This document shows positions 27,584 through 63,326 of a stretch of DNA of 64,000 nucleotides, in pieces. The number at the start of each line of letters is the position of its first letter. Positions within the stretch are counted from its first letter, which is position 1. The position numbers were made by a program, and so were the translations under genes. Origin of the DNA: Planctomycetota bacterium. Its GTDB lineage: Bacteria > Planctomycetota > UBA8108 > UBA1146. The DNA is taken from contig JAAZXB010000011.1 in the NCBI GenBank assembly GCA_014240375.1, positions 50,512-114,511 on the forward strand, read 5' to 3'. The notes beneath the pieces are model-generated. The model did not search any database and had not been told where the DNA came from. It saw nothing but the letters and a program-made list of their open reading frames with translations.

Positions 27584-28282
27584 CTAGTCACAGACAGCGC
27601 CATATTGTGTTTCTCTTGTCACTACTGCAGAGGAAGGCAAAGAATCTGCTGCTGGCCAGTTGCAAATATACAGCCGATCGAAGAGATGTCCGGGAATCCA
27701 GTTCTGCCCCGACACTCGATCGGTACCTCCGATCGATCCTCCCACCTCCTCGACAAACATCGGCACGGTATTCTGATGGCCGCAGATCACCACACACTGC
27801 CCCGCTCCGATGGTCGCGATGGCATCTCGCCACGCCGGGGCATCGCCCGCCTGGATCGTTTCGATTTCTACACCGACCCTGGAAGAAAGCGGTTCCAGCG
27901 TCTGCCGGGTTCGCCTGTATTCGGTACACAGCAATCGGTGGACCGGCTGCCCGGAGAGTCGCTGTGCCAGCGCCTCCGCTCTCTGATGTCCCTCCTCGGT
28001 CAGATCCGGATCGGCCCCCGATCCCTTCTCTGCATGACGAAGTACCATCATCGTGCAATACCCTGATCGGCTCTGGTCTTCCATCGGCGACTCCTCTGCA
28101 ACTCCATCTTTCAGTCGTCCCTGCTGGACACAACCCAAACAAAGCACCATCGAACCGATCACCGCGAGGTTACGCCATCGATGATTCCACTGCGGCACTC
28201 GTCCGCCGCGAAACTGCGGCACTCGTCCGCCGCGAAACTGCGGCACTCGTCCGCCGCGAAATTGTGCCATCATTCCAGTCAT
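27584..28282 (-). CDS. Histidine phosphatase (phosphoglycerate mutase-like) lipoprotein
   Basis: 232 aa. ATG 28282 has GAGGAG at a spacing of 6. The N-terminus is unusual: three tandem 8-residue units (FRGGRVPQ) precede the hydrophobic core and lipobox 'LCLGC' (C51), so the n-region is extended and very basic. The catalytic domain has 'MVLRHAEKG' (phosphohistidine RHAE), 'TEYRRTRQTLEPL' and 'VVICGHQNTVP', the second catalytic His of branch-2/SixA-like members. The role is probably a periplasmic phosphatase or a dephosphorylation-type regulator; the substrate is unknown. Confidence 0.88.
   Translation of the reverse strand: MTGMMAQFRGGRVPQFRGGRVPQFRGGRVPQWNHRWRNLAVIGSMVLCLGCVQQGRLKDGVAEESPMEDQSRSGYCTMMVLRHAEKGSGADPDLTEEGHQRAEALAQRLSGQPVHRLLCTEYRRTRQTLEPLSSRVGVEIETIQAGDAPAWRDAIATIGAGQCVVICGHQNTVPMFVEEVGGSIGGTDRVSGQNWIPGHLFDRLYICNWPAADSLPSSAVVTRETQYGAVCD
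28191..28262 (-). repeat. 24-bp in-frame tandem repeat, three units
   Basis: Three units of 24 bp (two identical, the third with one change) encode basic FRGGRVPQ repeats ahead of the signal sequence of the histidine phosphatase lipoprotein. Confidence 0.92.
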
Positions 28283-56056: not shown

Positions 56057-58744
56057 ATGCCAATAATATTGCTCCGCACTGCGCTACTCCTGATGATCTT
56101 TCCCCTCAGCGGGTCCGCACTCTTCAGCCAGAAAATTGAACTCAACTGGAACAGCACTCCCGACCAGACATGGACCGGAGCCGACTGGAATTCCAATCGG
56201 CTCCAGGATTGGGAAGTGCGAGATGGAAATCTGCACTGCATCAATTCTCAGAAGAGAGATCCTGTCAGAACTACAATTTTGCTGACGAGTGAGGCACACC
56301 CGACCCAGGGTTCCTATGCGCTGGCGACCGAGATCTCCAGCGGCTGGCTCGCGGCACCTCATGAAGGTTCCTTCGGCGGAATCTTGTTTGGCATCGGGGG
56401 CACAGAAATCGACCCGAAGATTCGCTCGCTGGTCCACGACAAGCCCGCCGCCGATGGCGGAATCCTCGCGGTGATTCACCCGGATGGCCGTGTTGGTTTT
56501 CGCGACTTCCATCACGGCGGCGGTGGTGGCTCCTGGTCGATCGGAGGTCCACTACCGAAAAATCGTGGTCAACTGATCCCAGAGCAAACCAGAAATGGCG
56601 ACGGAGGAGAGGGGCCCTGGCTGTTGCGCCTGAAGGTGATTCCAGACTCCGAGTCGACCTTTCGCGTGCTCCTCACGGCCCATGCCAAGAAGGACGAGAC
56701 CCTCATCTCCTCGGCAGTTCTGCAGAAGGTCCCGGCGAATCTGGTCGACGGCTCCTTTGGCCTTGCCAGCCACCTCGGCGGCAAGAGTGGGTCGAACGGG
56801 TGGGTGATCCACAACTTCGGTGCGGACGGCGACGGGTTGGTCGCCACCGACGACCAATCCCTCGGCCCCATCTACGGGGTTCAGTACTGCCTGACAAGAA
56901 ACAAGAAGGGCACCCACAGCTGGAAGCTGACCGCACAGTTGGCACCGGTATCGGCACCTCAAGTCGAGTCTTGCCTGCTCCAGATCCTCGAAGATCAGCA
57001 GTGGAATACCATCTCTCGCGGCCAGTTCGAGCCGCTGTCGAGGGTGGTCCGCTTTCGCATGTCAAACTGGAATGCAGAGCGCGATCGCTCCTTCCGCGTT
57101 CGACTGCGTTACCGCAATTTAGACGATCAGGTAGAGAACCACGACTACTCCGGTATCGTTCGGGCCGAACCGGTCGCGGGCTCCGGTCCCATCGTGGTCG
57201 GCCTGATCTCCTGCATGAAGAACTTCACCGGCCAGCTGGCGTGGAACTCATCGTCGATCTGGTTCCCTCATCAAGAGGTTGCTGAAGGGGTCGCATCCCA
57301 CCAACCGGATCTGCTCTGTTTTGCCGGAGATCAGATCTACGAGGGGGACATCTCTCGTGCAGAAGGTGGTCCGCCCGACAAGATGCTGCTCGACTACCAC
57401 ACCAAGTTCCTGCGCTGGTATCGCTCCTTCGGCGAACTGACCCGCAACACTCCCTGCATCACCATCCCCGATGATCACGATGTCTATCACGGCAACATCT
57501 GGGGAGCCGGCGGCAAGCGCGGCCGTAAGGAACCGGGCACCACTGCCCAGGATTCCGGTGGCTACAAGTTGGCCCCGCGCCAGGTCAACGCCATCCACCT
57601 GACCCAGACCTCGCACCTGCCCGATCCCCTCATCGATGGGCCGATCGGCGAGGGCTACAGCGTTTACTCGACCCGTGTCGAATACGCCGACATCAGCATC
57701 GCGGTGCTCTCCGATCGCCAGTTCAAGAGTGCACCGCGCCCATCGGTGCCGCAGGGCAAGGTGGTCAACGGCTGGTTCACCAATCCCGAGTTCGATCCCG
57801 TCGATGCCGATCTGCCGGGTCTGCATCTACTCGGCGATGCGCAGGAGAAGTTCCTCGATCAGTGGGCGCTCGACTGGGGCTACGGTGCCCAGTGGAAGTT
57901 TCTGCTCTCGCAGACCCCCTTCTCCAATGTCGCCACCTTGCCACCGGGAAAAACCGGCGGCATCACGCTGAGTTTGCCGATCGTCGAAGCGGGCGACTGG
58001 CCCGAGGGTGAAGTTCCCGTCGCCGATTGCGATTCGGGGGGCTGGCCGCAATCCCCCAGGAACGAGGCGATCCGCCTGCTCCGAAAAGCGCGCGCCTTTC
58101 ACCTCGCCGGCGATCAACACCTTTCATCGTGTATCCGCTACGGGGTCGATGAGTTCCGCGATGGGGGAGTCGCCTTTGCCGGACCGGCGGTGGCCAACAC
58201 CTGGCCGCGGCGCTGGTTCCCTTCTACCGATGGAGGTGGCGAAAAGGTCAGTCCGCATCGTGGCACCGGCGATTACCTCGATGGCTTCGGTAACAAGATG
58301 ACGGTGCTGGCGATGGGCAACCCCTACCGGACTGGCCTGCAACCATCGCGGCTGCTCGACCGCGGCCCCGGCTGGGGCATCGTTCGCATCGACAACGACA
58401 GCCGCCAGGTCACCTTCGAATCGTGGCCACGCTGGAGTCGTCCCGGCGATGACGCTGCAAGCCAGTACCCCGGCTGGCCCATCACCGTCTCGCAACACTC
58501 CCTCGACGGTCGAACGCCCCATGCCCACCTCGCCCCGGTGCAGGAGCTGGATGGCATGACGGTGATCAGTGTCACCCGAGAGGGGGATGGGGAAGCAGAC
58601 CCGGGGGGAGCGCTGTACGGATACCGCCTGAAAGCGGGCGAGGTGTGGAATCCGCCGGTCTATCAGTCGGGCAGGTACCACGTCGTCCTCGGCAACCCGG
58701 AACAGAATCGCTGGAAGCTGATCCCGGTGCAGATCATTCCGTGA
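56057..58744 (+). CDS. PhoD-like alkaline phosphatase with N-terminal lectin-like domain
   Basis: 895 aa. ATG 56057, GAAAGGG upstream, signal peptide (4-24). The N-terminal about 260 residues form a concanavalin/DUF1080-like sandwich ('DWEVRDGNLHCIN', 'HLGGKSGSNGWVIHNFG'). A PhoD-type fibronectin-like segment follows, and the catalytic domain begins 'VVGLISCMKNFTG'. Metal motifs: 'CFAGDQIYEGD', 'TIPDDHDVYHGNIWG', 'NGWFTNPEF', 'FLLSQTPFSN' and 'HLAGDQHLSS'. It hydrolyses phosphodi- or monoesters outside the cell. The last 84 bp (58661-58744) recur at 60108-60191, after the next gene. The selenoprotein candidate starts 17 bp downstream. Confidence 0.92.
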   Translation: MPIILLRTALLLMIFPLSGSALFSQKIELNWNSTPDQTWTGADWNSNRLQDWEVRDGNLHCINSQKRDPVRTTILLTSEAHPTQGSYALATEISSGWLAAPHEGSFGGILFGIGGTEIDPKIRSLVHDKPAADGGILAVIHPDGRVGFRDFHHGGGGGSWSIGGPLPKNRGQLIPEQTRNGDGGEGPWLLRLKVIPDSESTFRVLLTAHAKKDETLISSAVLQKVPANLVDGSFGLASHLGGKSGSNGWVIHNFGADGDGLVATDDQSLGPIYGVQYCLTRNKKGTHSWKLTAQLAPVSAPQVESCLLQILEDQQWNTISRGQFEPLSRVVRFRMSNWNAERDRSFRVRLRYRNLDDQVENHDYSGIVRAEPVAGSGPIVVGLISCMKNFTGQLAWNSSSIWFPHQEVAEGVASHQPDLLCFAGDQIYEGDISRAEGGPPDKMLLDYHTKFLRWYRSFGELTRNTPCITIPDDHDVYHGNIWGAGGKRGRKEPGTTAQDSGGYKLAPRQVNAIHLTQTSHLPDPLIDGPIGEGYSVYSTRVEYADISIAVLSDRQFKSAPRPSVPQGKVVNGWFTNPEFDPVDADLPGLHLLGDAQEKFLDQWALDWGYGAQWKFLLSQTPFSNVATLPPGKTGGITLSLPIVEAGDWPEGEVPVADCDSGGWPQSPRNEAIRLLRKARAFHLAGDQHLSSCIRYGVDEFRDGGVAFAGPAVANTWPRRWFPSTDGGGEKVSPHRGTGDYLDGFGNKMTVLAMGNPYRTGLQPSRLLDRGPGWGIVRIDNDSRQVTFESWPRWSRPGDDAASQYPGWPITVSQHSLDGRTPHAHLAPVQELDGMTVISVTREGDGEADPGGALYGYRLKAGEVWNPPVYQSGRYHVVLGNPEQNRWKLIPVQIIP
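58661..58744 (+). repeat. Copy 1 of duplicated PhoD-gene 3' end (84 bp)
   Basis: The end of the PhoD-like gene including TGA. It is about 90% identical to 60108-60191: 3 differences in the last 68 bp and more in the first 16. Similarity ends at the stop codon. Confidence 0.92.
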
Positions 58745-58761: not shown

Positions 58762-59985
58762 ATGAACATCACGATCCTCTGCCTCATCGCATCCATCGCC
58801 TCGATGCCTCTCAGCTCGATGCCTCTCAGCTCGATGCCTCTCAGCTCGATGCCTCTCAGCTCGATGCCACTCGCCTCGATGCCACTGCCTTGCCACGACC
58901 AAGACACTCTCTCCCAGCAGCAATTCCAGCAACTACATCGGCAACTGCAGGCGCCAGCCGATGCGCCGTGGCGGACCATCCCGTGGAACATCTCGCTGCT
59001 CGATGCCCAGCGCGCCGCCATCGACCAGCACAAGCCGATCTTCATCTGGGCGATGGACGGCCACCCCCTCGGCTGCACCTGAAACAACGGAATCCTTGAC
59101 CGTGAGTCAACCTTCGCCGACCCCGAGATCGTTCAGCTGCTGAAGACCAAGTTCATCGCCGTCGCCATCGACCAGGCCTACCACAGACGCCAGCAAGATG
59201 CCGAAGGAGAGTTCTACCGCAAGATCGCCGGCCAGAGTCCGCGCAACGATTTCAAGAAGACGACCCAGGGGCTCTACCTCGCCAGCGCCAGCGGCGAGTT
59301 GCTCGGCTTCAACAACAACCGTGGTGCAGACCGGATCAAAGCCCTGATGAAGCAGGCACTCGCACAGTTTCAGGCACCCGCTGCAACGCCGATCGAAGCG
59401 GGGCAAGTCGATCGCCGCTACCATGCACCTGTGCCCGAGGGTGCGATGGTCGTGCGGGTACAGGCAAAGATCCTCGGTGGCTACGAGCCCACCACCAACT
59501 ACTGGCGCAAGATCTTTCAGGAGTCGCTGTCACGCGACAACCTGTGGCTGACGGCGGCAGAGCAACAAGCGCTGGTGGCCGGTGATCTGCCTGCATCGCT
59601 GCAGCAACGGCTGGTGCGCTTTCACCTGATCGACAACACCCGCGGCGAACCTCAGATGTGGAAACCGCAAGAGATCACTGCCGTCGATCTATCCCTCGAG
59701 AAAGGTCTGCTGAGCGGCACCGTGCAGCTCGAAACCGCATCCGGCAACCGCGGCTACCAGGCCAACCTGCTCGGCCACATCGAGCACGAGGATGGCAAGA
59801 TCACTCGCTTCGACCTCGTCACCCACGGACAGTTCTGGGGCCATTGCACCTACACCCCCGGCCCACCGGCGGGAAAGTTCCCGCTGGCGATCTCCTTCAC
59901 CCTCGCCGATGGCAGTGATATCGCCGACGGTGTGCCACCCAAAGGATCGCGCGGCTGGCTGCGAGGCTACCTGCAACCGCAATGA
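58762..59985 (+). CDS. Thioredoxin-like selenoprotein candidate (in-frame TGA at codon 107)
   Basis: A single frame of 407 residues if TGA 59080-59082 is read as selenocysteine; otherwise a 106-aa product and a headless remainder. Signal-like N-terminus with five SSMPL repeats, then a thioredoxin_7-like domain: 'KPIFIWAMDGHPLGCT-U-NNGILDRESTFADPEI', written here with U at the TGA. The redox site would be C105-T-U107. Downstream the coding pattern continues without frameshift ('LLKTKFIAVAIDQAY', 'GLYLASASGELLGF'). A C-terminal domain of about 200 residues ends 'GWLRGYLQPQ'. A hairpin begins 7 nt after the TGA (13 nt to its inner stem). The gene lies between the two copies of the PhoD 3' end. 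The alternative is a nonsense mutation. Confidence 0.8.
58801..58885 (+). repeat. 15-bp in-frame tandem repeat in signal region
   Basis: Four exact copies of tcgatgcctctcagc and two degenerate ones encode SMPLS repeats, making up most of the N-terminal export signal of the selenoprotein candidate. Confidence 0.93.
59090..59115 (+). promoter_or_regulatory. Putative bacterial SECIS hairpin
   Basis: TTGAC (59096-59100) pairs perfectly with GTCAA (59106-59110) around the loop CGTGA. An outer GAA/TTC pair (59090-59092, 59113-59115) extends it. The loop starts 19 nt after the TGA and has G at its second position. Bacterial SECIS elements need a small loop with a G near its start at roughly this distance. 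Only the geometry is seen; SelB binding is inferred. Confidence 0.6.
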
Positions 59986-60107: not shown

Positions 60108-60191
60108 TAACAGCCAGGCAAGCACCACGTCGTCCTCGGCAATCCGGAACAGAATCGCTGGAAGTTGATCCCGGTGCAGATCGTTCCGTGA
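60108..60191 (+). pseudogene. Displaced 3'-end fragment of the PhoD-like gene (copy 2)
   Basis: 84 bp whose frame reads Q-PGKHHVVLGNPEQNRWK and ends in a stop, parallel to Q-SGRYHVVLGNPEQNRWK at the end of the PhoD gene. There is no upstream coding part; the codon before the CAG is TAA. It marks the right edge of a 1.4-kb segment containing the selenoprotein candidate. Confidence 0.88.
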
Positions 60192-60237: not shown

Positions 60238-61665
60238 TTAGAAAACCGTTTTGAGTTGTTGAAGCACGGGCGATCCATCCAGGGATGAGTTCTCCCTTGC
60301 ATAGTCGATGGCCCTCTTGCCCTGCTTGTCTTTCAGCTGAGCGTCCGCTCCCAGATCGAGCAACTGACGAACCAACACCGGTGGCGATTCCATCGCTGCG
60401 CACATCAGGGCGGTCTTGCCATCAGCACCCCTTGCGTTCACTTTCGCTCCCGCCTCGACGAGAATGGTAAGGATCTCGGCAGCGAGCTGTATCTTATCTC
60501 GCCCGGTTTCATCGGTTCCTGGATACTCCTCCGCCGCCCACATCAAGGCGGTGTAGCCGTTTTGGTCGAGAGCATCCGGGTCTGCACCCTTGTCGAGGAG
60601 CCACTTGATCATCTCTACCTGTTGCCCCCTCACTGCTCCCATCAGAGGTGTGACACCTCCTGACGGATTGACATCGGCTCCTTGTTTCATCAGCATTTCC
60701 GCCATCGGAGCACTTCCTCTGGAGCAGGCATGAGTCAGGGGATAGCCAAGCTTGGACCTGAGATTCACTTCTGCTCCCTTTGCAAGCAGCAGCTTGGCGG
60801 ATCTGAGGGAGGTTTCGTTTATTCCATGGGCCGCATGATGCAGCGCAGTCATCTCGCCGTATCTGCACTTCGCTTCGATCTTTGCACCCGCATCCAGGAG
60901 CAACTGGACCATCTCAGGGCCCTGATCCACGGAAAACATCAATGGAGTCTCACGCTCCGGGCTTGTACTGACATTTACATCCGCGCCATGAGCGATGAGC
61001 AACTGGACCATCTCCGGAGTGCAGATCCAATCTCTTTTGTACATTGAATGTCCTCTGCGGAGATACCACGCCAGCGGAGTGGTTCCATCGGTTCTGTCTC
61101 TGGGCCTGACCTTGCGATTCGCTGGATCACGATGGTTCGATTCCCATCTCGCCCAGTTGACATCGGCTCCATTGTTCAGGAGTACTTTGACAATTTCATA
61201 CTTTGCCCTGTCCAGTTCCGCATCCGTCCGGGTGCTACCCGGTGCAACCGGCAGTAAGGTTTTGAAGAACTTCGAGCCGATGCCCAGGCAGTAAATCAAT
61301 GCGGTGGATTGCTTGTCACAGTGGGCATCCACCTCTGCACCACTGTCGATGAGGAACTGAATCATTTCTGGAGTGCTCAGGTAGACAACAGCCATCATGA
61401 GGGGAGTCACTCCACCTCGTTTCCCTTCCACCTGATAGCGCATGTTGATATCGACACCACTGTCGATTACCGACTGAACCGCATCAATTTTCCCCTGGTA
61501 TATTGCCTGGAACATCGCGGATTGGGTCATCGCGGATTGGGTCATCGCGGATTGGGTCATCGCGGATTGGGTCATCGACTTCTGGGCAGCAACCATCGAA
61601 CTGCTGCTGGCCACCAGCAATATTGCGATGATCGATACCATCGGTAGCTTCTTGTAAGACATCAT
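60238..61665 (-). CDS. Secreted ankyrin-repeat protein
   Basis: 475 aa. ATG 61665/61662 with GAGGTGA. A signal peptide (about 7-28) is followed by four MTQSA units, then about ten ankyrin repeats with the usual 'G-TPLM', 'LL-xGADVN' pattern ('TPLMMAVVYLSTPEMIQFLIDSGAEVD' in part, 'NGYTALMWAAEEYPG', 'DGKTALMCAAMESPP'). Several repeats are longer than 33 residues because of inserted loops. It probably works as a periplasmic or surface protein-binding scaffold. It is convergent with the PhoD fragment. Confidence 0.92.
   Translation of the reverse strand: MMSYKKLPMVSIIAILLVASSSSMVAAQKSMTQSAMTQSAMTQSAMTQSAMFQAIYQGKIDAVQSVIDSGVDINMRYQVEGKRGGVTPLMMAVVYLSTPEMIQFLIDSGAEVDAHCDKQSTALIYCLGIGSKFFKTLLPVAPGSTRTDAELDRAKYEIVKVLLNNGADVNWARWESNHRDPANRKVRPRDRTDGTTPLAWYLRRGHSMYKRDWICTPEMVQLLIAHGADVNVSTSPERETPLMFSVDQGPEMVQLLLDAGAKIEAKCRYGEMTALHHAAHGINETSLRSAKLLLAKGAEVNLRSKLGYPLTHACSRGSAPMAEMLMKQGADVNPSGGVTPLMGAVRGQQVEMIKWLLDKGADPDALDQNGYTALMWAAEEYPGTDETGRDKIQLAAEILTILVEAGAKVNARGADGKTALMCAAMESPPVLVRQLLDLGADAQLKDKQGKRAIDYARENSSLDGSPVLQQLKTVF
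61517..61576 (-). repeat. 15-bp in-frame tandem repeat, four exact units (MTQSA)
   Basis: Four identical copies of gcggattgggtcatc (+ strand) just after the signal peptide of the ankyrin protein. Exact identity implies recent expansion. Confidence 0.95.
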
Positions 61666-62498: not shown

Positions 62499-63326
62499 TC
62501 AGGAACTGCTGCGATAGCGATCGACCCGCACACTCTTGCCCTTGAAACTGACCTGCGGTGGGGGAGATTCGACGATGGCGGGCGCCCGCAGCGACCGCTT
62601 CACCACCACCCGGGATGTGGCGATCTCCATCGCCAGCGTGAACAGTTCTTCATCCTGCAACGGATCGGACCCCTCACCGACCAGCATCCTGAGCAACATC
62701 GCATCTTTTTTCACTGCAGCTTTTTTCACTGCTGCCTTCTTCACTGCAGCCTTGCCGTTGCCCTGCTTCTTGCCGCTGCTCTTGCCGTTGCCTTCCGGAA
62801 ACATCGGATCGATGTAGATGACATCCGGCCGGCCCGATCCGGAAGCCGTCGAACTGCTCTCGTCAGCCCTCATCGCCGTGCGTGCATCCCCGATACGAAT
62901 CGTCAGCCGAGCCGCCGCTTCAGCGATCTGTCCGGCGCCTTTCAACGCCCGACTCCTCGCATCCTGCAGCAACATGCCGACAAACGGATTTCGTTCAAAC
63001 GCCACCACCTCGCAACCGAGCAGAGCCAGCGTCATCGCATCGCGACCGAGCCCGCCGGTGACATCCCAAACCAACGGCATCGGTGCCCCCGCCGCCGGCA
63101 ATACCGCCTTCGCCAGCAGGCCACCACGCCCCTGCTTCGCCCGACGCAAGATCGATGCAGAAGCCAGATCCACCGTGATGGCACCAAAGGCTTTCCCATC
63201 ATCCGGCAACACCGTCAAACCCTCCGGCCGCTGCTCGAAACGAAGCAACTCACACCCCCGACGAGGCGACAGCACAAAGCGGGTTCGAGCGGCAGCGTCA
63301 TCGGAATCGTCATCCATCTTCTTCAT
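62499..63326 (-). CDS. rsmJ: 16S rRNA m2G1516 methyltransferase RsmJ-like, with Lys/Ala repeat insertion
   Basis: 275 aa SAM-dependent methyltransferase. Motif I 'VWDVTGGLGRDAMTLALLGCEV', seen in part, 'FERNPFVGMLLQDARSRA', 'DVIYIDPMFPEG' (the DPMFP block typical of RsmJ/YhiQ), and a C-terminal 'RVVVKRSLRAP...SFKGKSVRVD'. In E. coli RsmJ the DPMFP block is followed by a short Lys-rich segment. Here it is enlarged by three 15-bp units (KKAAV). It modifies G1516 of 16S rRNA in the cytoplasm. Located 19 bp upstream of the aquaporin gene on the same strand. Confidence 0.9.
   Translation of the reverse strand: MKKMDDDSDDAAARTRFVLSPRRGCELLRFEQRPEGLTVLPDDGKAFGAITVDLASASILRRAKQGRGGLLAKAVLPAAGAPMPLVWDVTGGLGRDAMTLALLGCEVVAFERNPFVGMLLQDARSRALKGAGQIAEAAARLTIRIGDARTAMRADESSSTASGSGRPDVIYIDPMFPEGNGKSSGKKQGNGKAAVKKAAVKKAAVKKDAMLLRMLVGEGSDPLQDEELFTLAMEIATSRVVVKRSLRAPAIVESPPPQVSFKGKSVRVDRYRSSS
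62706..62750 (-). repeat. 15-bp in-frame tandem repeat, three units (KKAAV)
   Basis: Three near-identical 15-bp units (ttttttcactgcagc on the + strand) encode KKAAV repeats inserted after the DPMFP motif of the RsmJ-like protein. Confidence 0.93.

Follow-up and report, generated by a model that had tools for sequence, protein, structure and literature searches.

The window analysed here is a stretch of 64,000 nucleotides (nt) of contig JAAZXB010000011.1 from a Planctomycetota bacterium, which carries a candidate selenoprotein gene behind a gene for a PhoD-like phosphatase (Table 1). Re-reading of the candidate gene bears out the description given in the original prediction: the TGA at codon 107 is the sole internal stop of a frame of 407 codons that ends at a terminal TGA (59983–59985), and it lies two codons past a Cys codon, giving C105-T106-U107 (U, selenocysteine or Sec) within the motif GHPLGC-T-U-NNG. 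A search of the genome of origin likewise recovers the gene with one TGA inside. Besides the candidate start at 58762, additional in-frame ATGs are found at 58804–58879. The perfect 5-bp stem with loop CGTGA that had been pointed out downstream is also present, the hairpin TTGAC-CGTGA-GTCAA beginning 13 nt past the TGA, so that the loop starts 18 nt after the UGA and has a G at its second position.

Table 1. Features of the candidate selenoprotein gene and of the gene upstream (window positions)
Feature	Position	Strand	Remarks
PhoD-like phosphatase gene	56057..58744	+	same strand as the candidate gene; Pfam PF09423, 37.9 bits (cut-off 27)
Candidate selenoprotein gene	58762..59985	+	407 sense codons, UGA as codon 107, final stop TGA
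Hydrophobic, signal-peptide-like N-terminus (judged by eye)	58762..58890	+	leads into the tandem repeat
15-bp tandem repeat	58800–58883	+	encodes MPLSS
Predicted thioredoxin-fold domain	58957..59382	+	model residues 42–183, protein counted from 58834
Cys105, partner residue in the C-T-U motif	59074..59076	+	invariant, 81/81
UGA, predicted selenocysteine, residue 107	59080..59082	+	TGA in 81/81; Cys in 21/25 focused matches
Bacterial SECIS-like hairpin	59096..59110	+	stem UUGAC/GUCAA, loop CGUGA (59101–59105)
C-terminal domain	59401..59982	+	antiparallel beta strands and helices; without family assignment

A scan of the GTDB genomes yielded 90 relatives of the gene, the best 80 of which were taken as loci and form, together with the window, a set of 81 sequences. 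According to their labels, 22 of the 80 loci belong to Verrucomicrobiota/Kiritimatiellia and most of the others to Planctomycetota. Because the UGA codon lies outside the DNA patterns used in the scan, this set is free of selection for TGA. The codon of residue 107 is nevertheless TGA in all 81 sequences and never TGG; the codons that flank it vary synonymously, and the protein is conserved on both sides. Note that locus L072, whose product is 81% identical to the window protein, lies on a contig labelled as a Bacillota metagenome-assembled genome, which is likely a mis-binned planctomycete contig.

The counterpart of this codon in homologous proteins is Cys. In a first protein search, 119 of the best 120 homologues (out of 1553) start past the UGA, and the remaining one, P0040, has a Trp at the site. 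When the query was limited to residues 66–125, 25 matches were obtained: 21 have a Cys at exactly residue 107 (GHPLGCTCNNG), three stop at residue 106 and one is P0040. More specifically, the Cys counterpart P0128 shares 39% identity with the window protein across 358 amino acids, the alignment being free of gaps near residue 107. Homologues with Cys at this very position were what the original prediction had called for; homologues ending at residue 106, which it had named as evidence to the contrary, amount to three of the 25 matches, and these are most likely gene models truncated at the stop codon. Three more aligned sequences with a Cys at the site were not counted: L135 and L136 represent other thioredoxin-like proteins that match weakly (E 8e-7 and 8e-6, respectively), and in L137, found with L097 as the query, the site is at the extreme edge of the alignment. 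The Cys-bearing homologues P0126–P0145 display no evident signal peptide, many of them beginning with MT..D..T, and perhaps make up a cytosolic, selenium-free branch.

The hairpin downstream of the UGA has the layout of a bacterial selenocysteine insertion sequence (SECIS) element. In the bacterial SECIS (bSECIS) model, as laid out in PMC13188914, the loop lies 16–37 nt from the UGA with a G within its first two positions; an energy of at most -7.5 kcal/mol is the cut-off of the predictor, some bSECIS elements lying outside the model. In the ungapped alignment A1 of the 81 sequences (75 distinct rows), all five stem pairs are formed in every distinct row (375 of 375 cells). At the second pair, 66 rows have C-G, six U-A and three G-U; at the fifth, 74 have C-G and one has U-A. 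The second pair joins two third codon positions, so that the codon pairs CTC/TCG, CTT/TCA and CTG/TCT co-vary and leave the protein unchanged. Neither the observed percentage of paired cells nor the observed covariation score was reached in any of 500 shuffles, and only three of the 500 had as many stem pairs with changes on both sides (two). Control pairings slid along the alignment scored 0.000–0.038, versus 0.109 for the hairpin, with 3.5–41% of cells paired versus 100%. Codon usage within the hairpin is constrained as well: 80 of the 81 sequences use CGT for the loop Arg, versus 18.4% of the 2073 downstream Arg codons of the same genes, and 80 use GAC for the stem Asp, versus 54% of 1533 Asp codons. 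Over 46 nt, 71 of the 81 sequences reach -7.5 kcal/mol.

A similar arrangement is found beyond the close relatives. Among 35 distinct TGA sites drawn from L097 and L100–L146, which are mostly more distant copies with some close relatives, 30 are followed by a bSECIS-like stem of at least 5 bp, versus 18.3 (standard deviation 2.6) in synonymous recodings, none of 300 recodings being as high. The stems of the remote copies differ in sequence, as illustrated by GGCGGGCC-GGC-GGTCCGTC, a longer hairpin found in L097. The latter locus is a second, remote copy in the genome of the window (L097:1378-2637), which shows 32% identity, has the motif GCT-U and is part of a wider group that shares this motif.

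The original prediction had asked for selA, selB, selC and selD in the genome of the window (G000; 94.8% complete, a draft in 120 contigs), and all four are present. The genes selA (529.7 bits) and selD (344 bits) and the tRNA-Sec gene selC (67.5 bits, UCA anticodon) lie within 2.7 kb of one another on contig C32, which also carries selB (390.9 bits). The selD gene (L147, G000:C32:222151-223074), located between selA and selC, itself contains a UGA in the context ASCAG-U-AAKLPP, which we take to be the canonical Sec position of SelD. A second match above the Rfam cut-off for tRNA-Sec in this genome (L002, 48.8 bits) was rejected, as ARAGORN identifies it as a tRNA-Ser. In the phylum as a whole, 87 of the 294 genomes sampled have a match to the window protein, which bears a TGA in 79 genomes and does not in eight (G076, G089, G110, G131, G134, G256, G260 and G272); several matches occur in some genomes, with a maximum of seven in G237. 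The position of the TGA at the motif was verified on the retrieved loci for 27 of the 29 loci L100–L128, L101 and L115 being cut by a contig end there or beyond. A selB gene scores above the cut-off in 190 of the 294 genomes, that is, in 74 of the 79 with a TGA-bearing match versus 116 of the 215 others (Fisher p 1e-11). The genome of locus L071, which is complete, likewise has a selB above the cut-off. Of 145 genomes from the phylum to which G294 belongs, assumed to be Verrucomicrobiota, G294 alone has a match, so that the family appears rare in that phylum. No match was found in plasmids by DNA search or in phages by protein search.

The UGA falls inside a single, confidently predicted thioredoxin fold, in which the first strand of the domain is succeeded by a helix and residue 107 stands immediately ahead of this helix. 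The original prediction had assigned this region to the redox site of Thioredoxin_7-type proteins; the fold predicted is of that kind, but Pfam Thioredoxin_7 (PF13899) itself has no match in the window protein up to E 1, and two of the 26 members of A3 match it (best E 9.7e-5). The equivalence of residue 107 with the cysteines of a CxxC motif can be drawn in two ways: the distance of 11 residues to a conserved Phe, which equals that measured from the first Cys in the DUF255 protein L136, favours the first Cys, and the placement of gaps by BLAST favours the second. Neither the window protein nor the second copy of the genome scores above the cut-off of any Pfam or NCBIfam family, the whole predicted model has no Foldseek match at E <= 0.001, and a sequence-profile search of solved structures returned nothing meaningful (best E 0.24). 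The C-terminal domain, searched alone, weakly resembles barrels of the calycin and START-like types, and membership of these groups was not adopted.

Several known families resemble the window protein in part. The VPGUxxT proteins NF041382/NF041383 (OS_HP5) are likewise thioredoxin-like and have a Sec motif, which reads VPGUxxT instead of GCTU-NNG. Weak matches to NF041383 were obtained from 33 of 60 members of the window-protein family (best E 4e-4), whereas the window protein (P0001) itself matches neither model; P0040 scores 18.7 and 14 bits versus cut-offs of 275 and 350, its match to NF041383 covering residues 55–124. For Thioredox_DsbH/DUF255 (PF03190), the window protein reaches 14.5 bits, below the cut-off of 27, and it differs from both this family and Thioredoxin_7 in having C-x-U, no CxxC and a C-terminal domain of its own. 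The thioredoxin-like selenoprotein Sec.1 (CxU), listed in Table 1 of PMC13188914, displays the same C-x-U order but belongs to Thioredoxin_3 (PF13192), which the window protein does not match. Finally, the Trx7/PDZ selenoprotein NF041199 has a Sec in a Thioredoxin_7-type protein, as reported in PMC9312934 and PMC13188914, but combines a CxxU motif with a PDZ domain, and the window protein has no NCBIfam match.

If the UGA were a true stop, the downstream part would be a separate protein made by re-initiation, as the database annotation has it. The many homologues that start past the TGA agree with this explanation, as does the occurrence, in 62 of the 81 sequences, of a GTG at most eight codons beyond it. 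However, the other 19 sequences, including the window, have no ATG, GTG or TTG there, the UGA would split one predicted thioredoxin fold, the full-length Cys proteins continue straight across the site, and the hairpin is conserved beyond the encoded amino acids; we thus regard re-initiation as very improbable. A change of the code, by which the UGA would be decoded as Trp or by near-cognate readthrough, could account for the Trp of the database copy P0040. It is even less probable, given that the site is always TGA and never TGG, that its counterpart is Cys, and that a SECIS-like hairpin and all the sel genes are present. Moreover, 36 of the 81 genes, that of the window included, terminate at TGA (two of the 81 are cut before their stop), indicating that TGA remains a stop. 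As for an assembly error or a pseudogene, the draft state of the genome might suggest it, but an identical TGA occurs in all 81 sequences, from many assemblies, between stretches of conserved protein with variable synonymous sites; the 80 other loci refute this explanation, which has practically no chance of being right.

Another explanation accepts the insertion of Sec and disputes the chemistry: the protein would not be a disulfide or peroxide reductase and would serve, for example, as a metal carrier or in the handling of selenium or lipid by means of its barrel-like C-terminal domain. We consider this unlikely, though distinctly less so than the preceding explanations, in view of the thioredoxin fold with its C-T-U motif, which is C-T-C in the Cys homologues.

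Some observations weigh against the decoding of the UGA as Sec in an exported redox protein. The hairpin region of the window has an energy of -6.6 kcal/mol, short of -7.5, with z values of -0.15 and -0.51, and the minimum-energy fold lacks the hairpin in 16 of the 81 sequences; single-sequence folding energy being this weak, a cross-sequence comparison is needed to reveal the hairpin. The SECIS-like element looked for around the UGA is conserved with covariation, though the window itself misses the energy cut-off. One of the five covariation measures, the count of further pair types, does not stand out from shuffled alignments, 215 of 500 reaching it. Five of the 79 genomes with a TGA-bearing match have no selB above the cut-off (G136, G206, G217, G238 and G285, drafts that are 83–90% complete). 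At the site itself, Ser or Asp is found in the remote copies L129–L131, the second copy of L133, L134 and the second match of L132; these two, of the unrelated kind that the original prediction had held to speak against it, were seen in distant copies only. Two further remote copies, L132 and the first copy of L133, keep U without a Cys two residues earlier, which suggests that the Cys is not always required. Lastly, export is called from a judgement of the N-terminus by eye. Concerning L133 (G149:C321), its two nearby copies read AAG-U-DN, with the UGA kept and the Cys gone, and GTG-D-EN, with Asp at the site, and may possibly represent a series of decay.

Altogether, the TGA common to all 81 sequences, the SECIS covariation, the Cys counterparts and the sel genes strongly support the selenocysteine that had been proposed, and from this convergent evidence we are nearly certain that the UGA is read as Sec, its insertion being predicted from sequence. 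It is also highly probable that the in-frame UGA at codon 107 is decoded by the SelA, SelB, SelC and SelD of the organism itself, giving an oxidoreductase of thioredoxin fold that is likely exported, as its hydrophobic N-terminus suggests, and that has a predicted Cys-Thr-Sec motif. According to the mechanism that we propose, the hairpin would act as a SECIS retaining SelB and Sec-tRNA at the ribosome, so that translation would continue past the UGA and the thioredoxin domain would receive its second half. Residue 107 would occupy the place where thioredoxins have an active-site cysteine. The Sec107 selenolate would likely attack a disulfide or peroxide, Cys105 would resolve it as a selenenylsulfide, and the C-terminal beta domain may confer substrate or partner specificity. 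The assignment of Sec as the attacker and of Cys105 as the resolver is likely, because neither residue varies in the main family and because those copies that have Ser or Asp in place of Sec lack the Cys too. This redox mechanism, which is the usual deduction from such a fold and motif, appears probable.

The surroundings of the gene vary between loci. A gene of a SelD-fusion cluster lies convergently downstream in seven of the 81 loci, followed in six of these by a gene of a SelA cluster. One member of each cluster was checked with hidden Markov models: the member at L078, an oxidoreductase fusion whose C-terminal half is the SelD part, reaches 247 bits with the SelD model (cut-off 125), and the model with which it scores highest is TIGR04369 'fusion_not_SelD' (465, below its own cut-off of 700); the member at L081 reaches 508 bits with the SelA model (cut-off 267.9). 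The seven loci are labelled Rhodopirellula, Rubripirellula and Planctomycetaceae and are therefore not independent; at least 3.5 kb of downstream sequence is available in 59 of the 80 loci. No neighbour cluster is common to more than 10 of the 81 loci, and the neighbours of the window gene are absent from the 14 largest clusters; the neighbourhood thus offers little functional information beyond the SelD/SelA-type genes near some members. In the window, 17 nt separate the end of the PhoD-like gene from the start of the candidate gene, and the two are possibly co-transcribed. The last 84 nt of the PhoD-like gene (58661–58744) recur as a direct repeat, 90% identical, downstream of the candidate gene (60108–60191), a pattern that looks as if the latter had arrived beside a duplicated end of its neighbour. 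Tandem repeats whose period is 15 or 24 bp occur at 58800–58883, 61513–61577, 62701–62750, 778–832, 2893–2989 and 28189–28261. Two of the repeats lie early in exported-looking proteins, namely MPLSS in the predicted selenoprotein and AMTQS in an ankyrin-like open reading frame on the minus strand (60238–61665), which suggests that they form variable linkers behind signal peptides.

Among the 119 families of prokaryotic selenoproteins catalogued in 2026 (PMC13188914), none has the motif and domain of the window protein. Nor was the family found in the open-access literature, as far as its accessible parts go, including those of PMC12013277, PMC5029168 and PMC2398784; priority is unsettled, as two recent works and the supplementary table of PMC4807772, which may hold a relative, fall outside this comparison. 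By its sequence, the window protein is the representative of a new family of predicted selenoproteins, the nearest known ones being the VPGUxxT selenoproteins and DUF255/DsbH. We see an even chance that it is the first representative of an extensive, as yet unlisted selenoprotein superfamily of the Planctomycetota, rarer in Verrucomicrobiota, in which an exported thioredoxin-fold C-T-U enzyme would carry a novel beta domain for ligand binding, with Sec prevailing and Cys the exception, and which would have stayed hidden because gene callers cut at the UGA, while being among the main users of selenium there. Nearly all of the closest relatives stand in the database searched as N-terminally cut proteins (119 of the 120 best matches). 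A clean SECIS with natural covariation provides material for testing recognition by SelB in a little-studied phylum, and the Sec/Cys pairs allow one to ask what benefit selenium brings to a C-x-U thioredoxin-fold enzyme. With a TGA-bearing match in 79 of the 294 genomes sampled in the phylum, adding this family would explain the presence of the Sec machinery in many planctomycetes.
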